A stretch of 38,177 nucleotides of DNA from a virus. Below the pieces are notes generated by a model. The model ran no database searches and was not told the origin of the DNA. It saw only the letters and a program-made list of their open reading frames with translations. Shown here one piece after another: positions 4,849-38,177 of the stretch. Made by a program: the position numbers and the translations under genes. The stretch is from positions 1 to 38,177 of IMG/VR virus record IMGVR_UViG_3300037560_000024. The stretch is one strand, 5' to 3'. How positions within the stretch are numbered: the stretch's first letter is position 1; every line of letters starts with the position of its first letter.

Positions 4849-7800
4849 ATGGCAGAAGTAGATATCACACAACTGACAGATATGCTGGAAGCTGGTAGAA
4901 CTCCTGAGCAAATTAAAGGGGTTATCGCTTCGTTAGACTTTACCCCAGCTATGAAGGAGAGATTAAACGCAGCTGTAGATAAAGCTACACCAGCTAGTAA
5001 AGTTAAAACTGTAGGCATAGAAACAGTATTAGATTCCCCAGTGCAGAAGAGAGTTGATAACTCTGTGCCTGAAGGGGTAGGTATGCCTGAACTAGCCTTA
5101 GCTATTGAGACTACTCCTACCAGCTCAGATGAATACACTAAGATGAAGGCAGTTGAGACTAGCCTTGTCAAGACAAAAGGGGATAGCATAATTACTCAGG
5201 AAGAGTTAGGTGTTAGTGTTATGGAGCTAAACTCTGGGAGAAACATACAAGAGATAATGGATCTGTATCAGGGTGTGGTATCATCGTTTATGAAGGCTAA
5301 CCTACTTAGAGTTATAAAAGACGATGTAGCACAAGATCCCTCAGTACTGGAGCACTATGCTCCTACACTACAAGCAACTGATGCACTGCGTGCTCAGCAG
5401 GTTACAGGTGATCAGAAGGGTACCGTTGCTACTATCAGTGACCTGTATGCTAACGAAACTCTTGATGAGTTTAGTCTGCGTAGCAAGGAAGCAGAGAATT
5501 ACATGTGGTCTAAGTATGCAGAGTACACAGAGGATAAGGGATTGTTTAGTAAGATAGTGGATGGTACTGGCTTACTGTTATTACCTGACTTTACTAAGGA
5601 TGCATCAGATGTAGCCAAGGCACTGAATGGTAAGCGTTCAGACCTCATGGATATAATCTCAGGCTTTCAAGAACAAGACCCTGCTACGCAGATGCAACTG
5701 ATTGATCAGATATTTCCAGTGATAGTAGAGGCGTTTGAAGATAACGCTTTCAAGGTAGGAGCGTACATGTCCTTAATGTATGACCCTAAGCATATCACCC
5801 ACATCACACAGGGTATGGTGTTTGATGGGCTAGAGATTGGCAGCATTATAGCAGCCCCTATTGCTTGGACTGGTAAGGCCGCTAAGACTATGGCTGCTGG
5901 AGTCAAGCCTACAAAAGAATTAAAGAACTTAGGTGCTACAGATGAGGCAGTTAAGCTAAACGAATTAGCACAGGCTACTGGTGATCCCTCTCTTACTAAG
6001 ATTATAGCAGGAGATGAAGTAGACGTGGCCATGAACTCAAGCCCCTTTAAGTTTGAGGAGACTGTACTGTCAGGTAATGCAATGGATGGCTTAGCAGGTG
6101 AACAACAGAGGCTAAAAGAATTAATACGTGCTGAGGTACGTGCACCTATGGCTGCAATTAGAGACGACAAGTTCCTAATGCAGACTGATGCGTTAACTAT
6201 GGATGAGAAGGCAGGAGCTGTAGACTCATTCATTGTAGGTAGACAAGCCTTAGCTGAGAAGCAAGGTAAGATTGTAGATCAGGCAGTAGTAATAGCATCT
6301 GATGATTCAGGTTTTAAGGTACGATACAAAGTAGCAGAAGAAGGTGCTCCTAACTTCAACGTAGTGGAAACTGTTAAGTACACTAGGAGTGATGTAGGTG
6401 TAATGGAAGCTTCATCAGTAGAGGGCGCTGCGCTAGTTAACTCAAAGCTAGGCGGAAAGATATTCTCCCCTGAGAGATTGCTATCTGGTACTGGTATTGT
6501 GGAAACAACCACAGCAGGTGGACTACAGTCTAGCAGACTACGTAATGTTCTAGTTAAGCAGCTGAATGATCTGGACACAGGGATGAACAGGAAACAGAAG
6601 GTAGCAGTGGATGAGCTGATGCTTGCAGGTGATGAGCAAGAAGTTGTGTTCAGCCTCAAGGAACTACTAAGTGGAACTGTTGAGGTTAAGTCAGGTAAGC
6701 GTGCATACACTACACCTGAGATTGAGAACTATTATAAGAAGCGTGCATTCATGGATGAACTATGGATGTTCCAAGATAAGAAAGTAAGAGATCAGTTAGA
6801 CTTCCTTGGCTACAAGGAGGTACGATACTCCAACAACAAGAAGATAGAAGGTATAGATCTAGGCATACCTCGCACCTCTTTGGGTGCAGCTGTTGATGAC
6901 TTTGTATTCATGCCCGGCAGAACTAAGGGTGGTGAGTTTGTAAAGCGTAGTGATATGGGGGATGTACCCAAACTTCAGGACGAAGGATGGCAGGCTATAC
7001 AATTGCTTGAGCCTAAGACTGTAGCAGGTAATAACAATGTAACGTGGATGATGGTACGTGCTGGAGGAGAGGGTACTACTGGAGTTGTTAAAGGATTACC
7101 TCGTGTAGGTATTCTTAATAAGGTACCCGGCTATGTACCACGTGTACGTAGACCTGGGTTACACTATGTTAAGGATGCAGCTAGAGGTAGCAAGACAGTA
7201 CGTGCGTTTGAAGGTAAGAAAGCAGCACAGGCATGGGCTGATGAGCAGATGGCAGCACAGCGGCTAGCTGGTGTATCCCAAAAGGATGCGTCTGAGCTGG
7301 TAGTACGAGCTGACCAAAACCTAACCCCATCTGAGATACTGCTGGAAGATGCAAGATCTGGTGGTGGGCTATACACAGGCTCACGTTCTAAAGATCCTAT
7401 ACTAGTAGGTGCTGATGGTGTTACGGCTGAGAGGTTTAGCACAGGCCAAGCTACACAAAGATACTTACAGAACATAGCAGATTCTATGCCTCTTAATAGG
7501 TACAGACAAGCTCTGTCCCAGAGGTTTATCAATACAGTTAATGACATAGCTAAGCGAGAAGGCAAGGCTAGTGGTTTCACTGATCAGAATGATTGGGTTA
7601 ATACTCAGCTCACACTTGAGCCGGGTAACCAGAAAGAGATGATGGAGCAGACACGTAGGTACCTAGTTGATCAGCTACATATCCCTGAGAACAACGAACG
7701 TACATGGGAAAACTTTATATCTGGTATAGTAGATGGGTTAGAAGGTAAGGCTCCTCTGAAGGTACGCCAAGGTATCATGGATCTAGCATCTAAAGACCCT

Positions 7801-26214: not shown

Positions 26215-26475
26215 CTATACTATTATAGTATCTCTTCCAAATAAAGCTTGAGCAAACTGTTGTTCAGTCACAAGCATAAACCTACTGTCTCCCGCAGCTA
26301 CAAGTCCTGAGTGGTAACTAAAGGCTTTGCTATCCTTAAGATCTATCATCATAAGGTTATCCGAGGAATTGTTTCTGTATCCTTTATTGTGACGAACTCG
26401 TGACTCCTTGACACTAATGCTTATAGCTCTAGATGCATCACTAGTAGGGCACCCAATATATCTAATGGTAGCCAC
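26215..26475 (-). CDS. Small alpha/beta family protein, member 6 (26.3 kb)
   Basis: 86 residues from a GTG at 26475 with GTAGAG ahead, overlapping the cyclotransferase gene by 14 nt. Strand TIRYIGCPTSD, helix ASRAISISVKES, strand NLMMIDLKDS and terminal RFMLVTEQQFAQALFGRD follow the family pattern. It is the last gene of the amidoligase transcript. Confidence 0.6.
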   Translation of the reverse strand: MATIRYIGCPTSDASRAISISVKESRVRHNKGYRNNSSDNLMMIDLKDSKAFSYHSGLVAAGDSRFMLVTEQQFAQALFGRDTIIV

Positions 26476-26821
26476 AGTACTCTACCCAGTCACCACTGAA
26501 CACCTCAGCTGGATCTCCTCTATAATCTCTCATGAAGTAGATCCATGTAGAAGGTAGTGCAGGTAGATCAAACACCCTGTCATAGAAGTTAGGGTATCCT
26601 TCGAGATAGTCCAGCCTCTCAAAGGTAGTATCATCTACCTCATATGTTTCAACAGTGATGTTGTGTAGTTCACCTGCTTGTAGTAGGGCAGGGAATGCCC
26701 CAAGGCTTACCATAGTGAAAGGTAACTGTACTGTACTAGTACCTAGTAACGTAGCCGATGCCAGTAGTGGGTGGTTACCCATACCCTGACGTAAGCTACC
26801 GTATACTGCGACCTGTGTCAT
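26462..26821 (-). CDS. Gamma-glutamylcyclotransferase-like (GGCT/AIG2-fold) enzyme
   Basis: 119 residues, normal length for the single-domain family. The signature substrate loop VYGSLRQG is at residues 6-13 and the catalytic acid lies in LDYLEGYP (E74). Enzymes of this fold release pyroglutamate (5-oxoproline) from gamma-glutamyl amines. Within this cluster it may trim or recycle a gamma-glutamyl product of the ligases. It overlaps the upstream gene by 1 nt and the downstream one by 14 nt, in a single transcription unit. Confidence 0.9.
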   Translation of the reverse strand: MTQVAVYGSLRQGMGNHPLLASATLLGTSTVQLPFTMVSLGAFPALLQAGELHNITVETYEVDDTTFERLDYLEGYPNFYDRVFDLPALPSTWIYFMRDYRGDPAEVFSGDWVEYCGYH

Positions 26822-27324
26822 TACTTACGGGCCTCTGCTGCCATGGCTGCCAGAAGTTTAAGAGCCTCTTCTTGCTCAGCCTTCTTCTCAGCAGCTGGAT
26901 CATAGTCACCCATATCGGGAGGTGACACTTGAAATTGTTTGATCTTACCATCCTCCTCTACCTGACTAAGTGCCAGTGTCCAGCTACGGATATCATTACT
27001 ACTGTTGTTATTGTGTGCTGCCTCACTGCTGGTGAAACCGTGGTGATCACAGAACTCTTCAAGTGTAGGGTAGCCTGTCTTAGCTGGTGTCCATCCATCA
27101 TCTTTCTTGGACTTTGTTGTAACACCACTAGCTACCAGTAGACCGAAGTCTCTGCCTTCTTTGATTACATCTATCATCAGCAGGTCGTAGATATCTGCAC
27201 GCTTCTTATCACTCAGTGACTTCTGTCCACCATTAAAACTTGAGATAAGATTAGCTCCGCAGTTACTGCTAAGCCCTGCCACTCCTACTGATACCGTTGC
27301 GCCGTATGCTTGTACTCTAGCCAT
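26821..27324 (-). CDS. Hypothetical cluster protein, candidate partner or substrate of the amidoligase
   Basis: 167 residues from the ATG at 27324, which has GAGGAAAT ahead; an earlier ATG at 27384 lies within the ATP-grasp gene. The N-terminal 30 residues are Gly/Ala/Val/Ser-rich, and the middle part holds EEFCDHHGFTSSEAAHNNNS. The last 16 residues (EEALKLLAAMAAEARK) match the C-terminus of the amidoligase at 29593-30513 (EALQLLAAMRAEAS). No enzyme motif is seen. It lies between ATP-grasp and cyclotransferase genes, so a role as substrate, carrier or subunit is proposed. Confidence 0.6.
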   Translation of the reverse strand: MARVQAYGATVSVGVAGLSSNCGANLISSFNGGQKSLSDKKRADIYDLLMIDVIKEGRDFGLLVASGVTTKSKKDDGWTPAKTGYPTLEEFCDHHGFTSSEAAHNNNSSNDIRSWTLALSQVEEDGKIKQFQVSPPDMGDYDPAAEKKAEQEEALKLLAAMAAEARK

Positions 27325-28093
27325 GATTATTTCCTCGTATTGCTTCGATTTTTTGTGCATAATTTTCAAGGGTTGTGCCGACAAGACCCGGAGCTGTGTT
27401 TACTTCCAACACGTAGTAGTTGTTACTGTTCTCATTGTATATAATATCCACTGCACCAAAGTGTAGACCTAGTGACTGGCATGCAGCTATAGCTAGCTGG
27501 TCTCTGCGCTCGTCCTGTTGTACGCCTTCTCGTGCAAATATGAATCCGTTGTTATGGTTACGTACCTGCCAGTTAACCTGACTATCAGGTATATCATTAC
27601 GTCTAGCCTTACGCTGAGTATCTATCACCTCACCTGCAAACACATGAGTACGGTACTCATTCTGCTTCTTGATGTACTTAACGTACAAGGGAGCAGTAGG
27701 TACATGCCCATTAGGGTTAACGATCTCAATACCTCTACCCTCTGACCCTCTAGTTAGGTGGCGTACTACTACTGTACTACCAGCATCAGCCCATCGCTGA
27801 GCAACAGCACGCTCTACTGTAAAGTCTGGTATACTAACCTCTCCAGTCTGCATAGATAAAAATGCACGTACCTTATCTGACGCCCTTGATATAGCAGTAG
27901 GTGGGTTAAAGAATTGCGGTGCATCATAAGTGGTCTGCTCTACATCGCTGTTACCCCAGTTCACAATGATATCACCACGTCTAGGTACATAGCTAGAGCC
28001 TGTCAGCTTAAGTCTACGTACACCTAGTCGTTCAGCCAGTGCCTTAGCACTAGCACTACCTGCCTTGTATGGCAGTATAAATAATCTAGCCAT
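27317..28093 (-). CDS. RimK-like ATP-grasp ligase
   Basis: 258 residues from the ATG at 28093 with GGAGAG upstream; the longer frame to 28159 overlaps another gene. Features of the ATP-grasp fold: DIIVNWGNSD early, VVVRHLTRGSEGRGIEIV as the Gly-rich ATP loop, LYVKYIKKQNEYR, and FGAVDIIYN with LEVNTAPG near the end holding the Mg-binding Glu/Asn. RimK-type enzymes join an amino acid to a carboxyl group through an acyl phosphate. In this cluster it would extend a peptide or metabolite by amide bonds. The acceptor is unknown. Confidence 0.88.
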   Translation of the reverse strand: MARLFILPYKAGSASAKALAERLGVRRLKLTGSSYVPRRGDIIVNWGNSDVEQTTYDAPQFFNPPTAISRASDKVRAFLSMQTGEVSIPDFTVERAVAQRWADAGSTVVVRHLTRGSEGRGIEIVNPNGHVPTAPLYVKYIKKQNEYRTHVFAGEVIDTQRKARRNDIPDSQVNWQVRNHNNGFIFAREGVQQDERRDQLAIAACQSLGLHFGAVDIIYNENSNNYYVLEVNTAPGLVGTTLENYAQKIEAIRGNNHG

Positions 28094-28328
28094 GATTAAG
28101 CTTCTCTCTCCAATTAGTTTGCAGGTCTTGCCAATAGTTATGCCCTTGTGCTGTTTCACTCCAAGTGAATGCAGCGTCTATAAATCTACTAGAATCTGCA
28201 CGAGCTAGTAGCTCTTCCAGCGATAGTTTCCTATACTGATAAGTAAGGAATGCCTTAACAAACTCAGTAGTTAAGTTATTCTCTTCCAGAAACACAGCAA
28301 ATTTAACTGCATCAGTGTGTTGTGTCAT
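28086..28328 (-). CDS. Small hypothetical protein, paralogue of the protein at 22151-22573
   Basis: 80 residues, AGGAGGAT before ATG. Contains FAVFLEENNLTTEFVKAFL and a C-terminal W..L...WREKL. Both elements recur in the larger protein at 22151. The gene overlaps both the ATP-grasp and the amidotransferase genes. The helical acidic character suggests a protein-protein adaptor. No known function. Confidence 0.65.
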   Translation of the reverse strand: MTQHTDAVKFAVFLEENNLTTEFVKAFLTYQYRKLSLEELLARADSSRFIDAAFTWSETAQGHNYWQDLQTNWREKLNHG

Positions 28329-29589
28329 CTTTCTTATCCTCCTCTTCTATCCACTCTTCAAGGTATATGTCATAGCACCTGTCATGCATTAGCCCATAAG
28401 GGGAGAACTTACCATCAAGTGCCTCCTCCATTGACATAGGGTGGCTGCAATATGCACACCCATCCTTAATAAGTTTCTTTAAGTTACCAAGTGTAACTGC
28501 ATCATGATCTATCACTATCACCTCATCATCAAGCATATCATCAGCATCAAAAGGGATGTCATCATTGTACCCTGTTGACGGGTCACCACTAGCCAGTATC
28601 TCTTCAATACCAAAGCCAGATATAAACCCTGTAGCCCTGTTAACCATAGTTCCTGAGTACATCTTACCTACCTGTAGTTCAGGCACAGCAACACGTGAAA
28701 TCTCATAGGTCCTGCCAGTGTCTAAATCAGTACACCCCCAGTAACCATCGGTACTATAGTTAACAACGAAGTCAACCTCTTCTGTTTCTAGGGCAGTATC
28801 ATTTTTCTTACCAGTCCCATGAGTTTGGTATGTATTGCCACCACGATTGTTCCATACCGACTGCCCACTGTACTTTGGGGCTAGTTCTACAGTAGTAGCT
28901 GCCTCCAATAGCATTTCCTTAGTCATGATAGGCCACTTACCTAGCTCCCATGCTGAGGGTATCTCAAGGTGCTCACCTGCCGGTAACTTAAAGATCTCCT
29001 TGATCTCTATATCATTACGACCTAACACCCAGCGCAGCATGTCTGCCTCTGATGCCCAGTATATATTACTAGCAGTGATAGCTATATGTAATGGCTTGAA
29101 CTCATTACGCAAGAAGTTAATAGTGCTACGGTCTGCATCATGCCAGACCAGTGCAAAGGTACCTCTTAGTTCCTTAGCCGTGTCTACAACCCCATGCTCT
29201 GACATGTAGTTAGTGATTGCTTCGCTATCTACATCAGCATCATGGTCAAGGCTGTAGTGGTTTGTTAACGTACCGTTATGTACCAGTGTTATATGATCTG
29301 AACAGAATGGGTGTGCATTAGCGTTAGATATTATACCCCTGCTAGCAAACCTATTGTGTCCAATGAATGCAGTGGTGTGGTACTTGTACCCTGTTATCTC
29401 AGCCAGTGTACCTTGTGATATGAACTCACTTGCAGACACTGCTTGCTTATACACTAGCCGTTTGTCCCCATCAATAGCACATACACCGGTACTATGTGGC
29501 CCCCTTATCGTGTCAGCTATCAGTAACTCCTTGAATGCTGTCTTGTCTTTCAATGCTAACGTACCTACTACTCCTACTATTCCACACAT
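28312..29589 (-). CDS. Class II glutamine amidotransferase (Ntn-type) with extended C-terminus
   Basis: 425 residues, AGAGGAT before ATG. Cys2 follows the initiator Met (MCGIVGVVG), the N-terminal nucleophile of this class. GHNRFASRG and HNGTLTN supply the glutamine-binding loop and LRGTFALVWHD completes the fold up to about residue 210. It hydrolyses glutamine to give ammonia. The 200-residue extension carries CAYCSHPMSMEEA and HDRCYD, a potential zinc site, and no asparagine-synthase domain. Ammonia may pass to the amidoligase encoded 3 nt upstream. A GFAT or PurF function is not supported because the synthase domains are absent. Confidence 0.88.
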   Translation of the reverse strand: MCGIVGVVGTLALKDKTAFKELLIADTIRGPHSTGVCAIDGDKRLVYKQAVSASEFISQGTLAEITGYKYHTTAFIGHNRFASRGIISNANAHPFCSDHITLVHNGTLTNHYSLDHDADVDSEAITNYMSEHGVVDTAKELRGTFALVWHDADRSTINFLRNEFKPLHIAITASNIYWASEADMLRWVLGRNDIEIKEIFKLPAGEHLEIPSAWELGKWPIMTKEMLLEAATTVELAPKYSGQSVWNNRGGNTYQTHGTGKKNDTALETEEVDFVVNYSTDGYWGCTDLDTGRTYEISRVAVPELQVGKMYSGTMVNRATGFISGFGIEEILASGDPSTGYNDDIPFDADDMLDDEVIVIDHDAVTLGNLKKLIKDGCAYCSHPMSMEEALDGKFSPYGLMHDRCYDIYLEEWIEEEDKKDDTTH

Positions 29590-29592
29590 ATG

Positions 29593-30513
29593 CTATCCTC
29601 TGACTGGTGGTGGTGGTGTATCTGATGCCTCTGCCCTCATGGCAGCTAACAATTGCAGTGCTTCTATCTGCTCCTCTGTTGCACCATCGAACGCAGACAT
29701 ACCTTCCACACGTTCAGGCTTGTACTGTTCACGAGGTAGTGAGTGTACTAGGTTCATGACGTTATTATGAAACTTATCATGGTAGTCACCTGATACACAC
29801 ATAGGCCCTACTAAATCATTACCATAGACGTGTCTTATAACACGCTCAGCTGGTGAACTCTGTGCAAATGCTAGCACCTCTTCAGGTGAGCTAAAGGTTA
29901 ACGATCCACTACGTAGCCGACTGATCACATCAATCCATAGTCTGATACGTGCTATGTCAGCTGTACCCTCATGCATACGGAACTCAACTGTACCTAGGTC
30001 ACCTATCCTTGATAGGTTAATGCCTGTGTACTTAGGCCACCGCCGTAGTACTGCAAAATCTTTTTGCTTATAAAAATCACGTATCGTACGGAGTAAGTGT
30101 GCTGCATTGGTTAAGCCGGGGCAGTAGATGTTATCATATCTGTCCTTACCACACATACTGTATAAGGCTGACTCTGTTACTGTATACACAGCAAGCAGTG
30201 TAGCTACCTGTTGCTCGGTTAAGTTACGAGCGTTGATGTGTACATGCACTGATGTACGTTCAGATATGTTGAAGACCTGTGACGTGAGAGCAGCTCGGAG
30301 GTCTATCAATGCTTGCTCTATATTCTTTGGCCCCTTAGGCCCGTTGAATACTATCTCAATGCCATCATTACGAAGGGATGGATCACCCACATAAGACAGG
30401 TGTCGTGACTCTGGCATACGAGACACATCTGCACCCTCCAGTTCCACCTCTACCCCTATACATAAGGGGTTCTTAAGACTAGCTATTCCAAAATATTCTG
30501 CGACTGTTCCCAT
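29593..30513 (-). CDS. Amidoligase (COOH-NH2 ligase, GS-like fold)
   Basis: 306 residues, GAGG before ATG, overlapping the preceding gene by 1 nt. The metal- and ATP-binding motifs of the amidoligase family are present: GVEVELEG (E22/E24/E26), DPSLRNDGIEIVF (D44, E53), SVHVHIN (H90, H92), then NLSRIG and TVEFRMHEG (R179). The family forms amide bonds using ATP and a glutamine-synthetase-like fold. The C-terminal 20 residues (EALQLLAAMRAEAS) are not part of the core and recur in the protein at 26821. It lies next to the amidotransferase. Confidence 0.9.
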   Translation of the reverse strand: MGTVAEYFGIASLKNPLCIGVEVELEGADVSRMPESRHLSYVGDPSLRNDGIEIVFNGPKGPKNIEQALIDLRAALTSQVFNISERTSVHVHINARNLTEQQVATLLAVYTVTESALYSMCGKDRYDNIYCPGLTNAAHLLRTIRDFYKQKDFAVLRRWPKYTGINLSRIGDLGTVEFRMHEGTADIARIRLWIDVISRLRSGSLTFSSPEEVLAFAQSSPAERVIRHVYGNDLVGPMCVSGDYHDKFHNNVMNLVHSLPREQYKPERVEGMSAFDGATEEQIEALQLLAAMRAEASDTPPPPVRG

Positions 30514-31064
30514 TATAATACCTCTTCATCAAAGCTACGTTTAACCTGTGGATCAGGGATTGATATGCGGCTGCTTATCACCTCACCTACTATAACATCA
30601 CGCATGTATACCACATAGTTCTGGTATGTAGGTCGCTTGACTATAGCAAAGTTCTTGGATATAGCACCACCCTCTTGCTTGGCCTGATCAATAGACACAT
30701 ACTCAGGTGCAAGTAAGGGTGCAATCACATCATCACCTCTTATTGCTCTGCCCTGTAGCTGTGTGATATGCAGTAAGTTAGCCATGATACCACGGTGCCA
30801 CTGCCGCTGAGGCATACGCTCAACCCAAGCTACCCCTTTACCTAGGTTCACCATCATACTATCAGGATGATCAAAGGTTAGCTTACTATCAGCTAGTGCT
30901 ACCTCTTCTGCAACACCCTCATACTCAACGATAACACGGTTGGTACCTACTGGTTCAAGTACACGTGCAGGTACTACCTTACTACCATCCTTACTAACAA
31001 TCCCAATGAACCCACGTCCATAGGTACGGGATATGTCCTCTCTTGACATACTACTTGGTCTCAT
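30513..31064 (-). CDS. Hypothetical protein conserved in position within the amidoligase cluster
   Basis: 183 residues, ideal GGAGG site before ATG. The N-terminal half is beta-rich (RGFIGIVSKDGSKVVPARV; TNRVIVEYEGVAEEVAL), perhaps a small barrel; the middle has GKGVAWVERMPQRQWHRGI. The C-terminal part looks mixed. No catalytic motif is recognised. Coupling to the amidoligase by a 1-nt overlap suggests a shared pathway or complex. Confidence 0.55.
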   Translation of the reverse strand: MRPSSMSREDISRTYGRGFIGIVSKDGSKVVPARVLEPVGTNRVIVEYEGVAEEVALADSKLTFDHPDSMMVNLGKGVAWVERMPQRQWHRGIMANLLHITQLQGRAIRGDDVIAPLLAPEYVSIDQAKQEGGAISKNFAIVKRPTYQNYVVYMRDVIVGEVISSRISIPDPQVKRSFDEEVL

Positions 31065-31327
31065 ATAGCCTCCTCTATTCCTAATGCTTTAACGAACTGA
31101 TCACAGGGTACAAGTACACTTGCAGGCTCAATATGTCTACCACTCCCATGTGATACACTTACATTACCATCTATCCATAAAAATATGTACCTTCCTGTGG
31201 GCCTGTTATTTTTTATGTGCCCTAACCACGCACTTCTGTTAGCTACCTTTAGATTATCTAACAGTGCCTTCACTACATTGAGTGGGTCAGCCGGAGGCTT
31301 AACCTCAGTGTACACTACCTTAACCAT
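31061..31327 (-). CDS. Small alpha/beta family protein, member 7 (31.2 kb)
   Basis: 88 residues. VKVVYTEVKP, helix DPLNVVKALLDNL, strand GRYIFLWIDGNVSV, and the end ASVLVPCDQFVKALGIEEAI follow the family order closely. It sits inside the amidoligase operon, next to member 8. Function unknown. Confidence 0.65.
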   Translation of the reverse strand: MVKVVYTEVKPPADPLNVVKALLDNLKVANRSAWLGHIKNNRPTGRYIFLWIDGNVSVSHGSGRHIEPASVLVPCDQFVKALGIEEAI

Positions 31328-31328
31328 A

Positions 31329-31559
31329 CTATCCTCCTGTTAGTGCCTGTTTAAATTGCTCCCATGTAACCTCTGTGCCTGTCTCACCTACTTGACTATG
31401 AGGCATTGCGAAGCCTGCGGTTCTATTATTAAAATTTACATATACATAAGGTGCATCATTATTTTCAGGATCAATAATACCACCGATAGGTTCTTTAATC
31501 CCTTTAATTAACTCTCTCGCCTCGGGTATAGAGGGGTAAGGTGCCATTATATACATCAC
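31329..31559 (-). CDS. Small alpha/beta family protein, member 8 (31.4 kb)
   Basis: 76 residues from a GTG at 31559 that overlaps the amidoligase stop, or 75 from the next ATG. Helix SIPEARELIKGIKE, strand PYVYVNFNNRTAGFAM, end TEVTWEQFKQALTGG. The family is not otherwise known to me. It follows the second amidoligase directly. Confidence 0.65.
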   Translation of the reverse strand: MMYIMAPYPSIPEARELIKGIKEPIGGIIDPENNDAPYVYVNFNNRTAGFAMPHSQVGETGTEVTWEQFKQALTGG

Positions 31560-32329
31560 AACGTAACTACCTTGTACTTAGTTATCAACTGTTGTGCTAA
31601 TGTCTTGTTGTTTGTGTTGATAGCCTGAACAATAAGCCTAGCATCAGCATCACTCACTGCATTGTTGAATGTTGTAGCTGCTGTGATGGTGTTGTTATAC
31701 ACCCACTCCATTAAGGTACTAGAGCTAAGCCAGAAGTTACTGAGTGAACGGTACTCCACACCATACACCTTGTGTCTGAATGCACCAGCATTACCATACA
31801 ACTCACGTCTACGTGCATCACCATCCATAAGGATAGAAGGTAAGCCTAGATGTAGATCCATAGCTCGTATGATCTTGCTGTTTGTTTCTTCATTGGGCTT
31901 GTTATACCCAACATGTATGTGTCCACCCGCAGTACGTAGTACTTGGTATGGGTCAGGGCTGGCGTTACGCTTCATTGTGTATGCATTGTAGTCAGGGTCA
32001 CAGCCAAACTGCAACGCTTGCTCACCCCACCCTACTAGCTGTGCCTGTGTGAATTCATGTGAACTCTCAACCACAGTGGATAGAGCATGTGGCTTAAGCA
32101 CCACGTCTAACTCATTACGTACAGTGTGATTGTTAGTGAGCCACTCTTGTACACTATGTGCTGGGTCAATGTTATACTCAGCTAGCACGTTGTCCTCTTG
32201 TAATGCACCTAGCTTACAAGCACGAGGTGACTGCTTACTACCACCTATCTTACCAATAGCAGCAGACATGTTGCCAGCTGCATCCTTAACAAACAGTTCA
32301 GGGTCTGCACCCACTAATATTTCAGACAT
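31556..32329 (-). CDS. Second amidoligase-type enzyme (phage COOH-NH2 ligase type 2)
   Basis: 257 residues from the ATG at 32329 with AGAGGT upstream. GADPELF at residues about 7-13, GGHIHVGY in the middle and YGVEYRSLSNFW toward the end are the characteristic motifs of phage COOH-NH2 ligases, which are distant relatives of glutamine synthetase. It is shorter than, and differs clearly from, the amidoligase at 29593, so the cluster has two ligases of this fold plus an ATP-grasp. The product would be an amide bond on an unknown acceptor. Confidence 0.85.
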   Translation of the reverse strand: MSEILVGADPELFVKDAAGNMSAAIGKIGGSKQSPRACKLGALQEDNVLAEYNIDPAHSVQEWLTNNHTVRNELDVVLKPHALSTVVESSHEFTQAQLVGWGEQALQFGCDPDYNAYTMKRNASPDPYQVLRTAGGHIHVGYNKPNEETNSKIIRAMDLHLGLPSILMDGDARRRELYGNAGAFRHKVYGVEYRSLSNFWLSSSTLMEWVYNNTITAATTFNNAVSDADARLIVQAINTNNKTLAQQLITKYKVVTL

Positions 32330-32579
32330 CACCTACTACCTCTTGTAATTGCTTTAATGTTAGGGTTGTAATTTCTGGGTTCATTTCCTCAAGTGTTCGA
32401 GGGTATGCACCAAGACTCATTATCTCACCATGATTAACACGTACATAACTTATAGCTGCTACTGGCTGTGCTATAGGTCGCTTGTTCCACCAATGTATGC
32501 CTACCCCTACAAGTAACCGTTGTGCAATGGCAGACTCAGCCTTAGTGAGGTTAACTATAGCTACTGTTAGTCCAGTCAT
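32322..32579 (-). CDS. Small alpha/beta family protein, member 9 (32.4 kb)
   Basis: 85 residues, overlapping the second amidoligase start by 8 nt. LTVAIVNLTKAESAIAQRL is strand plus helix, VAAISYVRVN the middle strand, and ITTLTLKQLQEVVGDV the terminal strand-helix. Function unknown. Confidence 0.65.
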   Translation of the reverse strand: MTGLTVAIVNLTKAESAIAQRLLVGVGIHWWNKRPIAQPVAAISYVRVNHGEIMSLGAYPRTLEEMNPEITTLTLKQLQEVVGDV

Positions 32580-32842: not shown

Positions 32843-33218
32843 GTATGGCCTTAGCTATCAGCCAACACAGCCATAGCAGTACGCCATACCCTAACACGTG
32901 AAAGGTTTGTGCTACTTCAATCCAATTAATGTAGCGTGAGAAGAAGCCTTGCATTACAGCAAGTGCCATCCCACACATGACTGAGCCTAGTATGTACGTG
33001 TCACCTATGTCATACCTGTTCAGCACCCGGATACACCCATTAAGGGAGGACTCCTTAGCTATCTTACTAGCCCATAGCTGTATCTTATCAGTGTGCCATA
33101 GGTATCCAGTACCTATACGTATGAATGAGCCTACAGCCCACAAGGAGAACACCAGTGTCCACCATATGAACAGTACAAGCAGTGCAATCGAGCCTATCCC
33201 AAGTCCCTCGGTGATCAT
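32832..33218 (-). CDS. Membrane protein with three or more TM segments
   Basis: 128 residues, GGGGAG before ATG. Hydrophobic segments at about residues 6-33 (IGSIALLVLFIWWTLVFSLW), 75-92 (YILGSVMCGMALAVMQGF) and 103-123 (TFHVLGYGVLLWLCWLIAKA). The loop between the first two is charged (HTDKIQLWASKIAKESS). Family not recognised. It may alter the host envelope early in infection, but that is inference. Confidence 0.7.
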   Translation of the reverse strand: MITEGLGIGSIALLVLFIWWTLVFSLWAVGSFIRIGTGYLWHTDKIQLWASKIAKESSLNGCIRVLNRYDIGDTYILGSVMCGMALAVMQGFFSRYINWIEVAQTFHVLGYGVLLWLCWLIAKAIRDG

Positions 33219-33219
33219 G

Positions 33220-33639
33220 TTATTCTCCCCATTTAGGTCGTCTATCTACTGGTATAGGACGACAGTAGAAATAGGATGTCTGTGCTGAGGTACAAAACAA
33301 TGACCTTTCACTATACTCTAAGTCACGCATAAACCTATACACTCCTAATGCAGCCCATGAAAAGTCCTCATCGTCACTAAACTCATACAGTTTACCTACC
33401 TCTGGTTCAAAGGGCTTGTCTGTTATCTTGCCACACTCCACTGGTTTTAACATAGAGGGTAGAGTCAGTTCAATACAGTGTGGGTATTCCCGGTTCCCTC
33501 CGTAAAAATTACCGGTGCCGTCAATGGCATGCAGTTTCTCCACACTACCCCCTTCTAAAGCTGTGTGAATATTTGCAAACATGAAGTAGTACTTCCCCTT
33601 CTCATACATCTTACCCTTACATTCAAGTAACTTACTCAT
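33220..33639 (-). CDS. Hypothetical protein with aromatic Cys-containing C-terminus
   Basis: 139 residues from the ATG at 33639 (GACGAGGA ahead); the frame is open to 33729 but that part lies over the previous gene. MSKLLECKGKMYEKGKYY at the start suggests a beta-rich small domain, with EVGKLYEFSDDEDFSWAALG and SYFYCRPIPVDRRP later. No known motif. It overlaps its neighbour by 8 nt. Confidence 0.6.
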   Translation of the reverse strand: MSKLLECKGKMYEKGKYYFMFANIHTALEGGSVEKLHAIDGTGNFYGGNREYPHCIELTLPSMLKPVECGKITDKPFEPEVGKLYEFSDDEDFSWAALGVYRFMRDLEYSERSLFCTSAQTSYFYCRPIPVDRRPKWGE

Positions 33640-33853
33640 CTTCCTCGTCCTCTTCTTTAGGTTCAATATCAAGTATGAGCTGACCTTCATGCTCATAGTA
33701 TGACAGTACAGTCCACTCTGATGATGCACCCTGTATTACTAACGGTTTATTCAGTGCTTTCTTAAACACCTTATCACTGTTAGGGTCAGTATCACACTCG
33801 TCAGCACAGCCCAACTGGCTAACCGACATGCCACACCCAGTTGTGCTACTCAT
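33632..33853 (-). CDS. Small Cys-rich, acidic-tailed hypothetical protein
   Basis: 73 residues from the ATG at 33853, which has GGGAGTAAG ahead. Four cysteines near the N-terminus (GCGMSVSQLGCADECD) suggest a metal site or disulfides, then VFKKALNKPLVIQ and a strand, and a tail of EPKEEDEEDE. The longer frame to 33913 is not preferred because it overlaps the previous gene. Function unknown. Confidence 0.55.
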   Translation of the reverse strand: MSSTTGCGMSVSQLGCADECDTDPNSDKVFKKALNKPLVIQGASSEWTVLSYYEHEGQLILDIEPKEEDEEDE

Positions 33854-34025
33854 GCTTCTTACTCCCAGTATGTAACAAGGTGGTATACCCACGGAACTCA
33901 GGACGTACATCATTGAAGTGCCGTCGAGCTATACGATATGCAACATCAAACTGCTGCTTACCGACAGTAGTGGTATCAAACTTCTTAGTTGCATTAGGTT
34001 TGATCCAAGGTTTTAGGCTACTCAT
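33846..34025 (-). CDS. Small basic hypothetical protein
   Basis: 59 residues from ATG 34025 with GGGAGT ahead; it overlaps the genes on both sides by 8 nt. Basic and mixed helix, with FDVAYRIARRHFNDVRPEFR in the middle, a plausible nucleic-acid-binding helix. No family recognised. Confidence 0.6.
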   Translation of the reverse strand: MSSLKPWIKPNATKKFDTTTVGKQQFDVAYRIARRHFNDVRPEFRGYTTLLHTGSKKHE

Positions 34026-34206
34026 GCTGTACTCCCATCATCTTATCAATGGCTCTGATTGTAGTGACTGCTGCTTTACAGTGGTGTAGCCATGTCCACC
34101 TCTCAATACACACATCGAGTGAAGCTACCCCTACATAGGGCAGGAACACACTATCCCTGTTCCATATAGGTGGTGGTTTCCATACTGTTAGTTGTTTACT
34201 TGACAT
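34018..34206 (-). CDS. Small hypothetical protein, Trp-rich
   Basis: 62 residues. Several Trp residues in VWKPPPIWNRDS and ERWTWLHHC, then KAAVTTIRAIDKMM. It overlaps the gene on each side (11 and 8 nt). No family is recognised and no TM segment is obvious. Confidence 0.55.
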   Translation of the reverse strand: MSSKQLTVWKPPPIWNRDSVFLPYVGVASLDVCIERWTWLHHCKAAVTTIRAIDKMMGVQHE

Positions 34207-34312
34207 GACGTTCTCTCCAAGTCCAGATTAAATGTTTAAGTCCATACCATAAGGCACCGACTAGGAAGTACAGTAGTACACATACTACTGCTATGTTAAA
34301 CAAGATTGCCAT
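34196..34312 (-). CDS. Tiny single-TM protein (38 aa)
   Basis: 38 residues from ATG 34312, AAGAGGG ahead. One membrane segment (LFNIAVVCVLLYFLVGALWY) then a basic tail (KHLIWTWRERHVK). Its start lies 22 nt inside the upstream gene and its stop overlaps the next by 11 nt. One of at least six tiny membrane proteins at this end of the genome. Function unknown. Confidence 0.6.
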   Translation of the reverse strand: MAILFNIAVVCVLLYFLVGALWYGLKHLIWTWRERHVK

Positions 34313-34539
34313 GCCCTCTTAAGGGCAGCCATATAAACACCCAGCTCAACAGGAGTGGCAGCCTTAGGTTTGAAGGAGTAAGGCAACCAATCATCGCGGG
34401 TATCACCGGGAAGGTATCGCCCTTGTCCTTGTGCTACACACACTCCTCGTATGTGGCCATTAGATACTTGTTGGGCAAGAATAACTATGCCACTCGAACT
34501 ACCTATAGCTAAGGTGGGACAGTCTTCATTGGTTATCAT
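34291..34539 (-). CDS. Small hypothetical protein, possible remote small-family relative
   Basis: 82 residues, GAGG before ATG. LAIGSSSGIVILAQQVSN is beta-like, then GVCVAQGQGRYLPGD and a final helix (ELGVYMAALKRAWQSCL). It has the size and a terminal helix of the small alpha/beta family but the linking strand is not clear, so membership is left open. Confidence 0.6.
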   Translation of the reverse strand: MITNEDCPTLAIGSSSGIVILAQQVSNGHIRGVCVAQGQGRYLPGDTRDDWLPYSFKPKAATPVELGVYMAALKRAWQSCLT

Positions 34540-34547
34540 ACACTACC

Positions 34548-34655
34548 TCACAACAGTAGTAACAGTACCACACAAGGCAGTACTATAAATAATAAAAACC
34601 TACGTGATCTATACCATATGTAGGCTATAATAAAATCAATTGCTTCACGTAACAT
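34548..34655 (-). CDS. Tiny single-TM protein (35 aa)
   Basis: 35 residues from ATG 34655 with AAGGGG ahead. An N-terminal amphipathic part (LREAIDFIIAYIWYRSRR) followed by a hydrophobic run with five final leucines (FLLFIVLPCVVLLLLL). The gap to the neighbours is 4-8 nt, filling space between two larger genes. Function unknown. Confidence 0.6.
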   Translation of the reverse strand: MLREAIDFIIAYIWYRSRRFLLFIVLPCVVLLLLL

Positions 34656-34659
34656 AAAG

Positions 34660-34923
34660 TTACCCCTTTATAGCAGCCATAACCTGCTCAACTGTTACAA
34701 TTATAGGTTCACTGCCATCATTATAGTTACCATAATCACTAGGGTTATCGCTATTACACATGGTAGCAGACTTAGCACTCGCATCTATCAACACGAAAGG
34801 AAAGTCAGGCCAATGATCAGCATAGTTTAGGTTGTTACAGCGTATACCTACATCCTCACAGAATGCACGCAAGTCAGTGACTATAGCCTCTGTTACACCG
34901 TCTATTATCAGTATCTTGCTCAT
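34660..34923 (-). CDS. Small alpha/beta family protein, member 11 (34.8 kb)
   Basis: 87 residues, AGGATA before ATG, sharing one base with the HNH-like gene. KILIIDGVTEAIVTDLRAF, then FPFVLIDASAK and the terminal PIIVTVEQVMAAIKG. It is a clear example of the repeated family. Function unknown. Confidence 0.65.
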   Translation of the reverse strand: MSKILIIDGVTEAIVTDLRAFCEDVGIRCNNLNYADHWPDFPFVLIDASAKSATMCNSDNPSDYGNYNDGSEPIIVTVEQVMAAIKG

Positions 34924-35273
34924 TATCCTAGCCTCTCGGTTAACTTGTTAGCCATACGTTGGAGCACAGCTACACCTAGGTGCTTACCTCCATCTACATC
35001 CTCGATCAGCATCTCCTTGATCTGATTAGCCTTATGACTACACGCTACGACGTTACCCTTATGATAGCCAACGCTGTTGTCAATACGATCAAACGTTAGC
35101 TTGTTAGGCGTGTCACTCTCATGTGTCAGCTCAACAGCAGTGAAGTAGCACCGCTTGGTGTTCATCAGCCTACGCATATCAACCAGTGTTAGTGAGAAAT
35201 CATGCCCTCTCTGCTCTGCATTGGAGTGTGTCTGAATGTAACGCTTAGCTAGAGTGATGTCGTCAACGCTCAT
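34923..35273 (-). CDS. HNH/His-Me endonuclease-like protein
   Basis: 116 residues, GGAGG before ATG. KLTFDRIDNSVGYHKGNVV followed by ACSHKANQIKEML reproduces the beta-hairpin and helix of phage HNH-type nucleases, with D-R-I-D and N/H positions; C43 and C77 (approximate) could be the remains of a zinc site. Phage HNH proteins of this size are homing or packaging nucleases; the early position here favours a free-standing nuclease or nickase. Activity is uncertain because the usual CxxC pairs are missing. Confidence 0.55.
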   Translation of the reverse strand: MSVDDITLAKRYIQTHSNAEQRGHDFSLTLVDMRRLMNTKRCYFTAVELTHESDTPNKLTFDRIDNSVGYHKGNVVACSHKANQIKEMLIEDVDGGKHLGVAVLQRMANKLTERLG

Positions 35274-35506
35274 GATAGTGCCTCCAGTACCTGCTTAACT
35301 GATAGCGTTACATTGCCCGGCATGCTAGTGTACTCTTTACCACACAAACACATGGTGCATTCATCCACGCGGATCATAAAGTAAGGCCACGCCTCTACTA
35401 CTATGTGCGCCTCAGTGGCTGAGCCTTCACTAAGCCCTGCCCTTAAGCCTGCCCTTTTTACTGCACGCTGCTCATCAGGGCTATCAGTGGTTACAATTAT
35501 CCTCAT
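35270..35506 (-). CDS. Small alpha/beta family protein, member 12 (35.4 kb)
   Basis: 78 residues, overlapping the HNH-like gene by 4 nt. RIIVTTDSPDEQRAVKRAGL, then YFMIRVDECTMCLC and the end NVTLSVKQVLEALS. It also has a CTMC..C group in the middle. Function unknown. Confidence 0.65.
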   Translation of the reverse strand: MRIIVTTDSPDEQRAVKRAGLRAGLSEGSATEAHIVVEAWPYFMIRVDECTMCLCGKEYTSMPGNVTLSVKQVLEALS

Positions 35507-35571
35507 AGTAGCACCCCTACTAGTATAGCTAGACCAAAGCCTAACCCTAAGATGAATAGGTTATACTTCAC
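35503..35571 (-). CDS. Tiny single-TM peptide (22 aa)
   Basis: 22 residues from a GTG at 35571 that overlaps the stop of the previous gene (GTGA), with GAGAGG ahead; the stop overlaps the next ATG (ATGA). Almost the whole peptide is one membrane segment (LFILGLGFGLAILVGVLL). The tight coupling at both ends supports translation, but its small size leaves doubt. Confidence 0.45.
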   Translation of the reverse strand: MKYNLFILGLGFGLAILVGVLL

Positions 35572-35783
35572 AGGTCTGCCTCTCGCCCATGCCCTCGCAT
35601 GTCTATGATGTTGAGGTAGTTAGCTTGCCTACCTGTCCACTTAGGTTCACCTTTACGCTTCATTATACGCAGCTTATGCCCCTTAAGCACACCCTTAGAC
35701 AGCTTGCTTATCTCGGCACTACTGTCCACTGTCATAGTGTATGACTTGCCCTTCACGGGCGTTACCTTCACTTGAATAGCCAT
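35568..35783 (-). CDS. Small basic hypothetical protein
   Basis: 71 residues with GGGTGA ahead. Strands IQVKVTPVKGKSYTMTVD, then a basic region (GHKLRIMKRKGEPKWTGRQ). It may bind nucleic acid. Family not recognised. Its stop overlaps the tiny TM gene. Confidence 0.6.
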   Translation of the reverse strand: MAIQVKVTPVKGKSYTMTVDSSAEISKLSKGVLKGHKLRIMKRKGEPKWTGRQANYLNIIDMRGHGREADL

Positions 35784-35784
35784 C

Positions 35785-35949
35785 TTAATGTATCACCCTT
35801 CCTATACTTACAGCTATAGTTCTAGTGTCCCTATGTATACGGAACCCTACCTTTTCTGCACCTGCTACTACGCATTGATGCATACGCTTACCAATGTGCC
35901 GTGCATGAGCATGGCTCAACTGGTACACGTGTGTTGTATATACTAACAT
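35785..35949 (-). CDS. Small basic His-rich protein
   Basis: 54 residues from ATG 35949 with GTAGGAG ahead. Six histidines in the first half (QLSHAHARHIGKRMHQC) and VGFRIHRDTRTIAVSIGRVI in the second. Positively charged, likely nucleic-acid binding. It is the first gene after the terminator-like hairpin at 35979-36007. Confidence 0.6.
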   Translation of the reverse strand: MLVYTTHVYQLSHAHARHIGKRMHQCVVAGAEKVGFRIHRDTRTIAVSIGRVIH

Positions 35950-35978
35950 GTCCTATACTCCTACTTAACAGACATAAG

Positions 35979-36007
35979 AAAGAGCACATAATATACGTGC
36001 TCTTTTT
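35979..36007. terminator. Strong 9-bp hairpin with T-run, terminator-like
   Basis: AAAGAGCAC (35979-35987) and GTGCTCTTT (35997-36005) form a perfect 9-bp stem with a 9-nt loop. On the + strand two more T's follow; on the - strand the arm is followed by CTTATG. It sits between the tiny TM genes (36.0-36.2 kb) and the His-rich gene, so it may end or reduce the earliest leftward transcript. Confidence 0.6.
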
Positions 36008-36047
36008 GTATGCCTACTGACATGCCTTGATAGGCAGTCTATTGCTA

Positions 36048-36146
36048 TCAATGAAATAGATACAGGTATAGTGCCAGTAACATGATAGCTATTATCAGTA
36101 GCCCGCCTACTGGCATATCCCAGATGAACATAACTAATTCACTCAT
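36048..36146 (-). CDS. Tiny single-TM protein (32 aa)
   Basis: 32 residues from the ATG at 36146, which overlaps the stop of the next tiny gene (ATGA) and has GGGGTG ahead. A short acidic start and one membrane segment (GGLLIIAIMLLALYLYLF). A longer frame to 36230 exists, but it would run antisense-in-frame over a better small gene, so it is not used. Function unknown. Confidence 0.6.
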   Translation of the reverse strand: MSELVMFIWDMPVGGLLIIAIMLLALYLYLFH

Positions 36147-36244
36147 ACTACACCCCATATGTAACACCCAATAGACGCTACCAACAACAAGCCTAATGTT
36201 ATTGATGCCCCTACTAACAGTGCAAACCAATCATCCCTAGTCAT
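36143..36244 (-). CDS. Tiny single-TM protein (33 aa)
   Basis: 33 residues from ATG 36244 with an ideal GGGAGGAG. A charged start (TRDDW) is followed by one membrane segment (ALLVGASITLGLLLVASIG). ATGA overlaps at both ends place it in the same operon as its neighbours. Function unknown; together with the 32-aa protein it could be a two-part membrane system. Confidence 0.6.
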   Translation of the reverse strand: MTRDDWFALLVGASITLGLLLVASIGCYIWGVV

Positions 36245-36402
36245 AGCCACTCCTCCCTAGGTTTCATAATGATTAAGGTATCACACTCAACAACAAACGT
36301 AGAGTTGGGATACTTGTTGGCTAACCTTATCAGCTCATCCCTTAACTCCTCTAATGAATGTATACCCATATCTATGAAGGGTATAGCATCATGCTCATTC
36401 AT
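36241..36402 (-). CDS. Small acidic hypothetical protein
   Basis: 53 residues from ATG 36402, overlapping the 159-aa gene stop by 4 nt. Helix EELRDELIRLANKYP, then FVVECDTLIIMKP as strands. It has the strand-helix-strand order of a tiny alpha/beta fold. No family recognised. Confidence 0.6.
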   Translation of the reverse strand: MNEHDAIPFIDMGIHSLEELRDELIRLANKYPNSTFVVECDTLIIMKPREEWL

Positions 36403-36878
36403 GCTACCAACCCTTGCAATTCTTTCAAGGCAAGCTTAGCTTGTGTCTGATCAGTACCATCCTTCAATGTATGATCCTTAATGGCATTAGTCAAGCCAGT
36501 CACCAGCCCTTTGATGCGTGCTTGATAATCAAACTTACTGGCTGATTCACTATCACGCTTGTTCCAGAATGGGTTGAGCATTGCCTGCTCTAACACGGCC
36601 GCTGTATCAGTAGGCATATCACCATTCTTTTTATACACACCTGTCTTAGTAATGTACTTGACCGGTGCATATGATGTGATCCAATACTTAAGGGCATTGC
36701 CTCGACCTGACTTTGGCATAGCTGCAACCAACAAAGACAGTGTGCTACTGTCCCCATGTTCATAGAAGTGCGATATACCTGACACTGCTACGTTATGTAT
36801 ACGTTCATCCAATGCCTTGCCGCCTTTAACAATCAGTTTGATGGTCTGTTTTGCTTGGGTTTGATTTAATAGTTTCAT
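36399..36878 (-). CDS. Hypothetical early protein, first long gene of the leftward block
   Basis: 159 residues, GCGGAG before ATG. Mostly helical; the middle has GISHFYEHGDSSTLSLLVA and SGRGNALKYWITSYAPVKY, the end is basic (KDHTLKDGTDQTQAKLALKE). Proteins of this kind are found early in other podophage genomes but their function is not known to me. It directly follows a large stem-loop and the non-coding control region. Confidence 0.65.
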   Translation of the reverse strand: MKLLNQTQAKQTIKLIVKGGKALDERIHNVAVSGISHFYEHGDSSTLSLLVAAMPKSGRGNALKYWITSYAPVKYITKTGVYKKNGDMPTDTAAVLEQAMLNPFWNKRDSESASKFDYQARIKGLVTGLTNAIKDHTLKDGTDQTQAKLALKELQGLVA

Positions 36879-36897
36879 GATACTGTACTCCGCTGTT

Positions 36898-36945
36898 AAT
36901 GGTTAATGCAAGAACACTAAGACAATGCTCTTGTTGGTAACCATT
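36898..36945 (-). promoter_or_regulatory. Long two-stage stem-loop in the leader of the first leftward gene
   Basis: AATGGTTA (36898-36905) pairs with TAACCATT (36938-36945), and inside it CAAGAACA (36909-36916) pairs with TGCTCTTG (36926-36933) with one wobble pair; the loop is 9 nt. It ends 20 nt before the start codon of the 159-aa gene. A 13-codon ORF (MVTNKSIVLVFLH) is encoded in the same hairpin. Possible roles are RNA processing, attenuation or stability; none is proven. Confidence 0.5.
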
Positions 36946-37496
36946 ACGTTACCGCTATCATGCCTAACAAGATAGTATCACTACCCTAGCATGAATTGCC
37001 TTCTTTCGTTGACCGTTGGGTCGTACCAGCTATGATTAACCTAGCCTTAACTAAACCAGTGCCGCTTTGTTATGGTAGCTTAACCCGCTACCCTTGCCCT
37101 CTACTTATCAAGAGCTTACCTGCTAACCTATACGGCTAACAGTTCACCTATGACTTTCAACTGGCCTACTCGCTTTAGTACCCCTCAGGTATATAGCTGT
37201 CCACTTGTTATACTGTATGCATAACCAAGTGACCACACTGGAAGGGACACGCACCTGTCACGGTGACAATTTTGCATTGATTCAATAGTGCCTTTGTCCT
37301 GACACTACCTTGGTTCAACTGGCTGTCACCACCGCAAACCATACAATCTATTCATGTAGGGGCACCATTAGGTGCCGCCAGATCAATATATTATCGAGTC
37401 TCCTAATACACTGTGTAATTAGTCCATGATAGTCACCTCTCTACTAGTGTAGTCTGTTCAAGGGAAAGCACTGCACCAGTGCCCTCTATCAACATA
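36946..37496. other. Non-coding region with hairpins, little or no coding
   Basis: About 550 bases without a convincing gene, unusual in so dense a genome. It holds perfect hairpins GGTAGC/GCTACC (37074-37092) and GGCACC/GGTGCC (37361-37376), a palindrome TGTCACGGTGACA (37256-37268), and one weak ORF (37208-37342). No tRNA cloverleaf or T-loop was seen. It may be a structured RNA, a replication origin or promoter region. Confidence 0.5.
37208..37342 (-). CDS. Possible tiny zinc-ribbon ORF (44 aa), low confidence
   Basis: The frame from ATG 37342 encodes a protein with MVCGGDS, a middle Cys and ACPFQCGHLV. The codon just upstream of the ATG is also Cys, so CMVCGG and CPFQCGH would make a complete zinc ribbon if a non-ATG start (ATA 9 nt upstream) were used. 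There is no clear ribosome site, and the perfect dyad at 37256-37268 lies inside it. It may be a decayed or non-coding sequence. Confidence 0.3.
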   Translation of the reverse strand: MVCGGDSQLNQGSVRTKALLNQCKIVTVTGACPFQCGHLVMHTV

Positions 37497-37634
37497 CTAT
37501 CGTCTAACGAATATGAATGTAGTACCTCGTAGTCCTACGACCACCTCTACTCTGGCGCCAGCTTGTCGTAATTGAGCTATACGAGTAGCTGTATGGTTGG
37601 CGCTATGGCGGTTGCCATATTGAAACATCTTCAT
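37497..37634 (-). CDS. Small basic protein in the control region (45 aa)
   Basis: 45 residues from ATG 37634. A His/Asn/Thr-rich start (FQYGNRHSANHTATRIAQLR), then a strand part (ARVEVVVGLRGTTFIFVRR). It is strongly basic. The ribosome site (CAGGTT) is weak. Codon use and reading frame look real but the function is unknown. Confidence 0.5.
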   Translation of the reverse strand: MKMFQYGNRHSANHTATRIAQLRQAGARVEVVVGLRGTTFIFVRR

Positions 37635-37675
37635 AGTAGTAACCTGTTGTATTTGAATGGTACGAATATAGTTGC

Positions 37676-37698
37676 GTACGTGCCCCTTCGGGCAGTAC
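37676..37698. other. GC-rich hairpin between two tiny genes
   Basis: GTAC-g-TGCCC pairs with GGGCA-GTAC around a CTTC loop (37676-37698), 3 nt past the stop of the 31-aa TM gene. No T-run follows on either strand, so it looks like a processing or stabilising hairpin rather than a terminator. Confidence 0.45.
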
Positions 37699-37701
37699 CC
37701 C

Positions 37702-37797
37702 TTAACTAATTAGGTTGAGCGTGGCTACATAGAATAAGAACCCTACCATTGCCATTGGCATGGATAACATCATTAGTACAGCGATTTTGTGTGACAT
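37702..37797 (-). CDS. Tiny single-TM protein (31 aa), first gene of the leftward unit
   Basis: 31 residues from ATG 37797 with TTGGAG ahead. SHKIAV, then a Met-rich membrane segment (LMMLSMPMAMVGFLFYVATL) covering nearly all the peptide. It is the gene nearest to the right-end control region and so probably the first leftward product. Function unknown. Confidence 0.6.
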   Translation of the reverse strand: MSHKIAVLMMLSMPMAMVGFLFYVATLNLIS

Positions 37798-37897
37798 AAC
37801 ATAAACTCCAATACAGATAAAAATGAACGACACTAATACATATACAGTATCCGTGCCAACTTTACGTATCGTTATAAATCAACAACTTAGGAACAAT

Positions 37898-37998
37898 GGC
37901 ACACCTTGTGCCTATGTCCCTATCCGTCACAAAGTGACAAAGTACGTCACTATGTAACAAACATGGTCAGTATGTGACACAACAGGGCACTTAGTACA
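37898..37998. repeat. Iteron-like array: GTCAC-NNN-GTGAC dyads at exact 20-bp spacing
   Basis: Three copies, GTCACAAAGTGAC (37926-37938), GTCACTATGTAAC (37946-37958) and GTCAGTATGTGAC (37966-37978), begin exactly 20 bp apart, and a degenerate fourth, GGCACTTAGTACA, is at 37986-37998. A related inverted repeat, GGCACA-CCT-TGTGCC, precedes them at 37898-37912. The same half-site recurs in TGTCACGGTGACA at 37256. Two helical turns per step is what a cooperatively binding dimer would use. The binding protein is unknown. Confidence 0.6.
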
Positions 37999-38083
37999 GG
38001 CAAGATACATGCCAAGGCAGACATAGACATAGACAGTGATGTACATATGTACAGGTCAGTAACTATGTGGATAGTAGAGTGTA

Positions 38084-38171
38084 GGGGGGTAGAAAGGTTA
38101 TAACTACTAAATACACACGATATAGTTATTATAATCAGTATGTAGTACCCCTATAAGGGGGGTAAGGGGGG
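38084..38171. repeat. G6-run repeats near the window end
   Basis: Runs of six G at 38084-38089, 38157-38162 and 38166-38171, the last two being a 9-bp tandem repeat AAGGGGGGT (38155-38172). CCCCTATAAGGGG at 38148-38160 gives a small hairpin next to them. Such tracts can form unusual DNA or mark a packaging or terminal region, but the true genome end is not visible here. Confidence 0.5.
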
Positions 38172-38177
38172 TAATAC

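Follow-up and report, generated by a model that had tools for sequence, protein, structure and literature searches.

Enhancers of the NtrC class are built from tandem dyads for a dimeric activator, which are phased with the DNA helix and placed upstream of a -24/-12 promoter, and the sigma-54 consensus is TGGCACG-N4-TTGCA. Lytic phages are usually thought to begin infection from strong housekeeping (sigma-70) promoters. Among the known sigma-54 activators is PilR, which activates the pilin gene pilA and whose sites in P. aeruginosa have GTCT elements as their hallmarks (PMC6058289). Here we describe a phage locus at which a phased dyad array and sigma-54-like elements stand together ahead of a putative early operon.

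The window, by which we mean the whole stretch of DNA analysed, is a 38,177-bp viral record (IMGVR_UViG_3300037560_000024, positions 1 to 38,177) in which we found no end repeats. The DNA polymerase shares about 40% identity with those of VpV262 and related Vibrio phages (Zobellviridae), and its helicase, primase and capsid are likewise VpV262-like, the capsid fragment matching phrog_267. The genes lie in two divergent arms, as they do in VpV262: rightward structural genes begin within the capsid gene and extend to 12240, and a leftward arm with the replication set (DNA polymerase, primase and helicase) runs from 36878 down to 12417. By its gene content and layout, the window is an incomplete Zobellviridae-like podovirus from which the terminase-portal part is absent. 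Ahead of the leftward operon lies a 1.3-kb noncoding leader (36879-38177), arranged as in VpV262, in which a search of Rfam gave no match; blastn of positions 33000-38177 against phage records also gave none. Elsewhere in the early arm, two amidoligases, a glutamine amidotransferase, an ATP-grasp enzyme and a gamma-glutamyl cyclotransferase are clustered (26462-32332, minus strand).

Within the leader, the first-pass annotation had reported a 13-bp dyad recurring at exact 20-bp steps, and three such dyads are present as described (Table 1). When scored with a statistic that assumes no motif and combines dyad symmetry with identity between copies at any period from 14 to 40, the array reached 34, compared with 27 for the runner-up position in the window and a top score of 30 in 1,000 dinucleotide shuffles. 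In a scan for the motif itself, matches with up to two mismatches in the window number 19 against 16.9 expected. Because this is the level of chance, it is the phasing and not the motif count that carries the signal. Other parts of the earlier description fell away. The weaker fourth site at 37986 is a poor match to the dyad, the half-sites at 37256 read GTCAC-N1-GTGAC and so differ in spacing, besides lying outside the array, and the related repeat at 37898 is a separate inverted repeat, GGCACA...TGTGCC. The statement that the array adjoins the first leftward gene is right if a 31-codon ORF (37797-37702) is counted; the first sizeable ORF (36878-36399) is about 1 kb away.

Table 1. Features of the early leader and of the start of the leftward operon, in window coordinates.
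Feature	Sequence	Position	Strand	Remarks
Dyad 1	GTCACAAAGTGAC	37926..37938		10/10 to GTCAC-N3-GTGAC; closest to the early genes
Dyad 2	GTCACTATGTAAC	37946..37958		9/10; exactly 20 bp beyond dyad 1
Dyad 3	GTCAGTATGTGAC	37966..37978		9/10; exactly 20 bp beyond dyad 2
Claimed fourth site	GGCACTTAGTACA	37986..37998		6/10 only; probably not a site
Candidate sigma-54 -24/-12 promoter	TGGCACGGATACTGTA	37843..37858	-	68 bp from dyad 1; reads toward the early operon
Second sigma-54-like site	TGGCATGTATCTTGCC	37999..38014	-	Beyond the array, reading the same way as 37858(-); the array is downstream of the site
Inverted repeat with rightward sigma-54-like site	TGGCACACCTTGTGCC	37897..37912	+	7th in the window by the pilA matrix
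Short ORF, 31 aa, hydrophobic		37702..37797	-	TTGGAG upstream, a plausible ribosome-binding site
Possible second short ORF, 45 aa		37497..37634	-	Weak ribosome-binding site
First sizeable early gene, 159 aa, phrog_1448		36399..36878	-	About 1 kb from the array
Poly-C element	ACCCCCCTTACCCCCCTTATA	38150..38177	-	Contig end; like elements beside the G056 array and in the G007 leader

The array has the same motif as sites at bacterial pilA promoters. Arenimonas fontis and A. composti have the two-dyad pattern some 100 bp upstream of sigma-54 promoters that match perfectly (12/12) and precede genes recognised as pilin genes by their N-terminus. In a gammaproteobacterial metagenome-assembled genome (MAG), the motif sits directly between pilA and a pilS-pilR pair, recognised by the PilS-type six-helix domain of the one and by the sigma-54 activator and Fis-type DNA-binding domains of the other, a response regulator. 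When these three genomes were searched for GTCACN3GTGACN7GTCAC with up to one mismatch, the pilin-gene locus was the only match in each. Exact matches were found in 36 of 299 genomes sampled from the order of Arenimonas, as against one of 299 for the reversed pattern, and in a wider sample of the class in 14 of 369 genomes, as against 4. Among 66 bacterial loci, some of which are repeats of one genome, a type IV pilin start lay within 1.5 kb in 33, nearly always at 200-400 bp. About half of the bacterial matches thus have no adjoining pilin gene. Among these remaining loci are some actinobacterial matches and the many copies in two Uhrbacteria genomes, both of which are something other than a pilA enhancer. 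In the two Candidatus Uhrbacteria genomes (L137, L138, L140, L144, L145, L147, L152-L155), the two-dyad, 20-bp pattern is found at many dispersed places with neither pilin genes nor sigma-54 sites alongside. Because PilR is the sigma-54 activator of pilA, we read the motif in bacteria as what looks like a PilR enhancer of pilA. Since the GTCT hallmarks published for P. aeruginosa differ in sequence from GTCAC-N3-GTGAC, it is from genomic position that we take the name PilR.

The exact two-dyad pattern was also found in eight viral contigs, in arrays of two to seven copies with the same 20-bp step as in the window. In two of these (L005 and L007), the array is followed by a TTGGCACGG element resembling sequence on the minus strand of the window. 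This element fits the sigma-54 consensus, and it was therefore that we came to the enhancer hypothesis. One relative, G056 (IMGVR_UViG_3300032024_000065), has its gene order in common with the window: its first gene is a phrog_1448 member 30% identical to that of the window (E 2e-16), its capsid and tail genes are homologous, and its amidoligase is 43% identical, amidoligases similar to those of the window lying in its early arm too. The rightward tail, terminase, portal and capsid genes of G056 probably show what lies past the right end of the window. The G056 array occupies 5139-5195, and past it comes a perfect (12/12) sigma-54 site, which starts 69 bp from the full dyad closest to it, compared with 68 bp in the window, so that the array-to-promoter geometry is kept.

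We then considered at least 112 IMG/VR loci with GTCACN3GTGACN7GTCAC, a set that includes L005 and L007, the source of the hypothesis. Among the 112 viral loci listed, the best sigma-54 site of the locus lay within 220 bp downstream of the motif in 43, where 3.2 were expected (Poisson P ~3e-33), and on the wrong side of the motif in seven; none had a pilin motif near the array. Clustering by DNA similarity placed the 49 listed loci whose sigma-54 site ranks first or second in 32 groups. The expected number was taken from locus length because a split of the viral loci into phased and solitary ones failed as a control, the solitary loci (a dyad and a half-site) being equally linked to sigma-54 sites. 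Viral arrays with no good sigma-54 site nearby include L003, L009 and L197. One viral contig (L009:4746-4878 and G060:12297-12381) has roughly seven phased dyads together with a further array, again with no good sigma-54 site nearby, and is a candidate PilR decoy. In L007 (3411-3544), two strong sigma-54 sites face apart around a single array between terminase and replication genes. The exact dyad was absent from 47 other relatives chosen by DNA polymerase, many of whose records are fragments; a search of these relatives for the phrog_1448 family gave no match, its control also being silent. A consensus array query recovered no credible phage isolate, and the array is absent from Stenotrophomonas phages DLP2 and AXL3, which we take to be users of the type IV pilus.

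When the window was scored with a sigma-54 matrix built from no sequences other than 28 bacterial pilA promoters, three of the seven best sites among about 76,000 positions fell within 70 bp of the array: 38014(-) ranked 2nd, 37858(-) 3rd and 37897(+) 7th. The site at 37858(-), TGGCACGGATACTGTA, matches 10 of 12 sigma-54 positions, with an intact -24 element and a -12 element that reads CTGTA rather than the common CTGCA. Because the -12 element is without the conserved C, the activity of this site is uncertain, and as a promoter it may be weak. Its distance to the start of the array is 120 bp, within the range of the pilA set (88-256 bp from the motif start). The two other sites do not suit a simple enhancer-promoter layout; G056 has a rightward sigma-54-like site, TGGCATGAATATTGCT, at the place equivalent to 37897..37912. 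The 31-codon ORF begins about 35 nt past the transcription start predicted for 37858(-), and the homologue of the phrog_1448 gene further on stands at the head of the early operon in VpV262, 1.070.O, 1.209.O and G056. Between the array and the first genes, we found no convincing sigma-70 promoter. At the contig end, the poly-C element reads ACCCCCC-N2-ACCCCCCTTATA on the minus strand, and the G056 copy adjoins an assembly gap; the element may be a genome end or the edge of a terminal repeat.

Taken together, these comparisons make it likely, though well short of certain, that the early operon of this phage is under host PilR/sigma-54 control and that the array is a PilR-type enhancer. The array would be an upstream activating sequence of the pilA type, set ahead of the leftward early operon. 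After injection, phosphorylated host PilR, an NtrC-class sigma-54 activator controlled by PilS, would bind the dyads cooperatively, aided by a spacing close to two turns of the helix. It would then contact host RNA polymerase-sigma-54 at the -24/-12 element at 37858-37843 (minus strand) and open the promoter, so that transcription would start near 37832 and proceed through the short ORF at 37797 into the early operon. For the window, this account supposes that PilR recognises the array as it presumably does at pilA, that the degenerate promoter can function, and that 37858(-) is the main early promoter. The purpose of such a design would be to fire the early genes only in cells with an active pilus circuit.

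Related phages give some indication of whether the design is a wider one. VpV262, 1.070.O and 1.209.O resemble the window in that their first gene is a phrog_1448 member, preceded by a noncoding leader that lies close to the genome end and contains, in each of them, a short dyad cluster of its own. They differ from it in that these dyads (TGGTCNGACCA, TTACANTGTAA) are irregularly spaced and no GTCAC-N3-GTGAC array is present. In VpV262, which has a 138-bp terminal repeat just outside the early leader, the six top sigma-54-like sites of the 46-kb genome all fall within 170 bp of that leader (L012:173-346), and four of them are forward, at steps of 41, 41 and 55 bp, upstream of three TGGTCNNACCA dyads. 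This cluster could have another role; the TGGTCNNACCA dyads have one match among 369 gammaproteobacterial genomes, with no established pilin link. The early leader of GX1 (L095:45700-46150) holds the best sigma-54 site of that complete 46-kb genome, and ahead of this site CGTAACACTTTTG or a close variant occurs three times with a 21-bp period, which suggests the same design as in the window with another activator sequence. These leaders hint that sigma-54 control of early genes may be common in Zobellviridae, with different activators, although we found no published test of it in these phages. The leader of 1.209.O (L011:43494-43704) has repeated TTTACAGTGTAAA palindromes with GGGGGTGAATTT, near which we found no sigma-54-like site. 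An rrn-like boxA leader is present in VpV262, 1.070.O and G007, and was not found in the leader of the window.

Other explanations for the array have to be weighed against host PilR/sigma-54 control. It might act as a decoy, titrating host PilR and lowering pilin expression during infection while driving no transcription, possibly for the exclusion of other pilus-dependent phages. The degenerate -12 of the window site would fit such a role, as would the long viral arrays that lack a neighbouring sigma-54 site, that of L009 among them. Three dyads per infecting genome would, however, titrate little before replication, and in G056 and 43 of the 112 listed viral loci a strong sigma-54 site stands where a pilA promoter would, both in side and in distance, so that we regard a decoy as unlikely, if conceivable for the window itself. 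Equally, the array could be a sigma-54 enhancer that serves some other host sigma-54 activator with the same recognition sequence. PilR is the better candidate, given that pilin genes adjoin many of the matches from the order and the class, that pilS-pilR is adjacent in one genome and that pilA is the only site in three; another activator seems improbable, even though about half of the bacterial matches lie away from pilin genes.

The first-pass annotation had offered an origin iteron or a multi-site operator for a phage or host dimeric protein. The host version of the operator gains support, since the array matches the sites at bacterial pilA promoters and is kept in G056. That the array is an iteron of a replication origin, or the operator of a repressor encoded by the phage, we consider very improbable: although phased dyads in a noncoding region would suit either, and an A+T-rich stretch and one imperfect DnaA box (38074) lie nearby, this box and one at 37224 do not make a cluster, and for replication the window encodes a DNA polymerase with a primase and a helicase. 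A Pfam scan of 30 leftward proteins turned up neither a regulator nor an initiator, so that for these proteins the earlier remark that no repressor gene is seen holds. The same array also marks pilA promoters in bacteria and, in numerous unrelated viral contigs, sigma-54 sites. A packaging or terminase recognition element would be in keeping with the VpV262 terminal repeat and with the end of the window, at the poly-C element, about 200 bp from the array. We rank it as the least probable of these readings, as it leaves the motif at bacterial pilA genes unexplained, and the L007 array is internal to its contig, between early and late genes.

If host PilR/sigma-54 control is indeed what the array confers, the host pilus two-component system would decide whether and when viral transcription begins, and the phage would act only in cells of a particular surface or motility state. 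This could account for a dependence on host and conditions that receptor studies miss, and for resistance of pilR or rpoN mutants that is not due to receptor loss. Phased GTCAC-N3-GTGAC dyads with a -24/-12 site would also provide a sequence signature for finding such phages and predicting their hosts. In the open-licence literature, our coverage of which is incomplete, we found no precedent for phage early genes under PilR/sigma-54. A broader proposal, that many unrelated gammaproteobacterial tailed phages independently took pilA-type PilR/sigma-54 enhancers and promoters, and that Zobellviridae commonly pair a sigma-54 early promoter with a lineage-specific enhancer, we put forward tentatively, judging its chances to be a little short of even.

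Of the known systems, the pilA promoter of Gammaproteobacteria is like the window in having 20-bp-phased GTCAC-N3-GTGAC dyads, which stand upstream of a TGGCAC...TGC sigma-54 element that reads toward the gene and, in the window, of a candidate element of this kind; the window differs in that its gene is an early operon with no pilin gene, in its three dyads and in its degenerate -12. With NtrC-class enhancers in general, the window shares tandem, helix-phased dyads upstream of a candidate -24/-12 element, but its dyad sequence is that of the pilA group, and a viral promoter would be served by an activator of the host.
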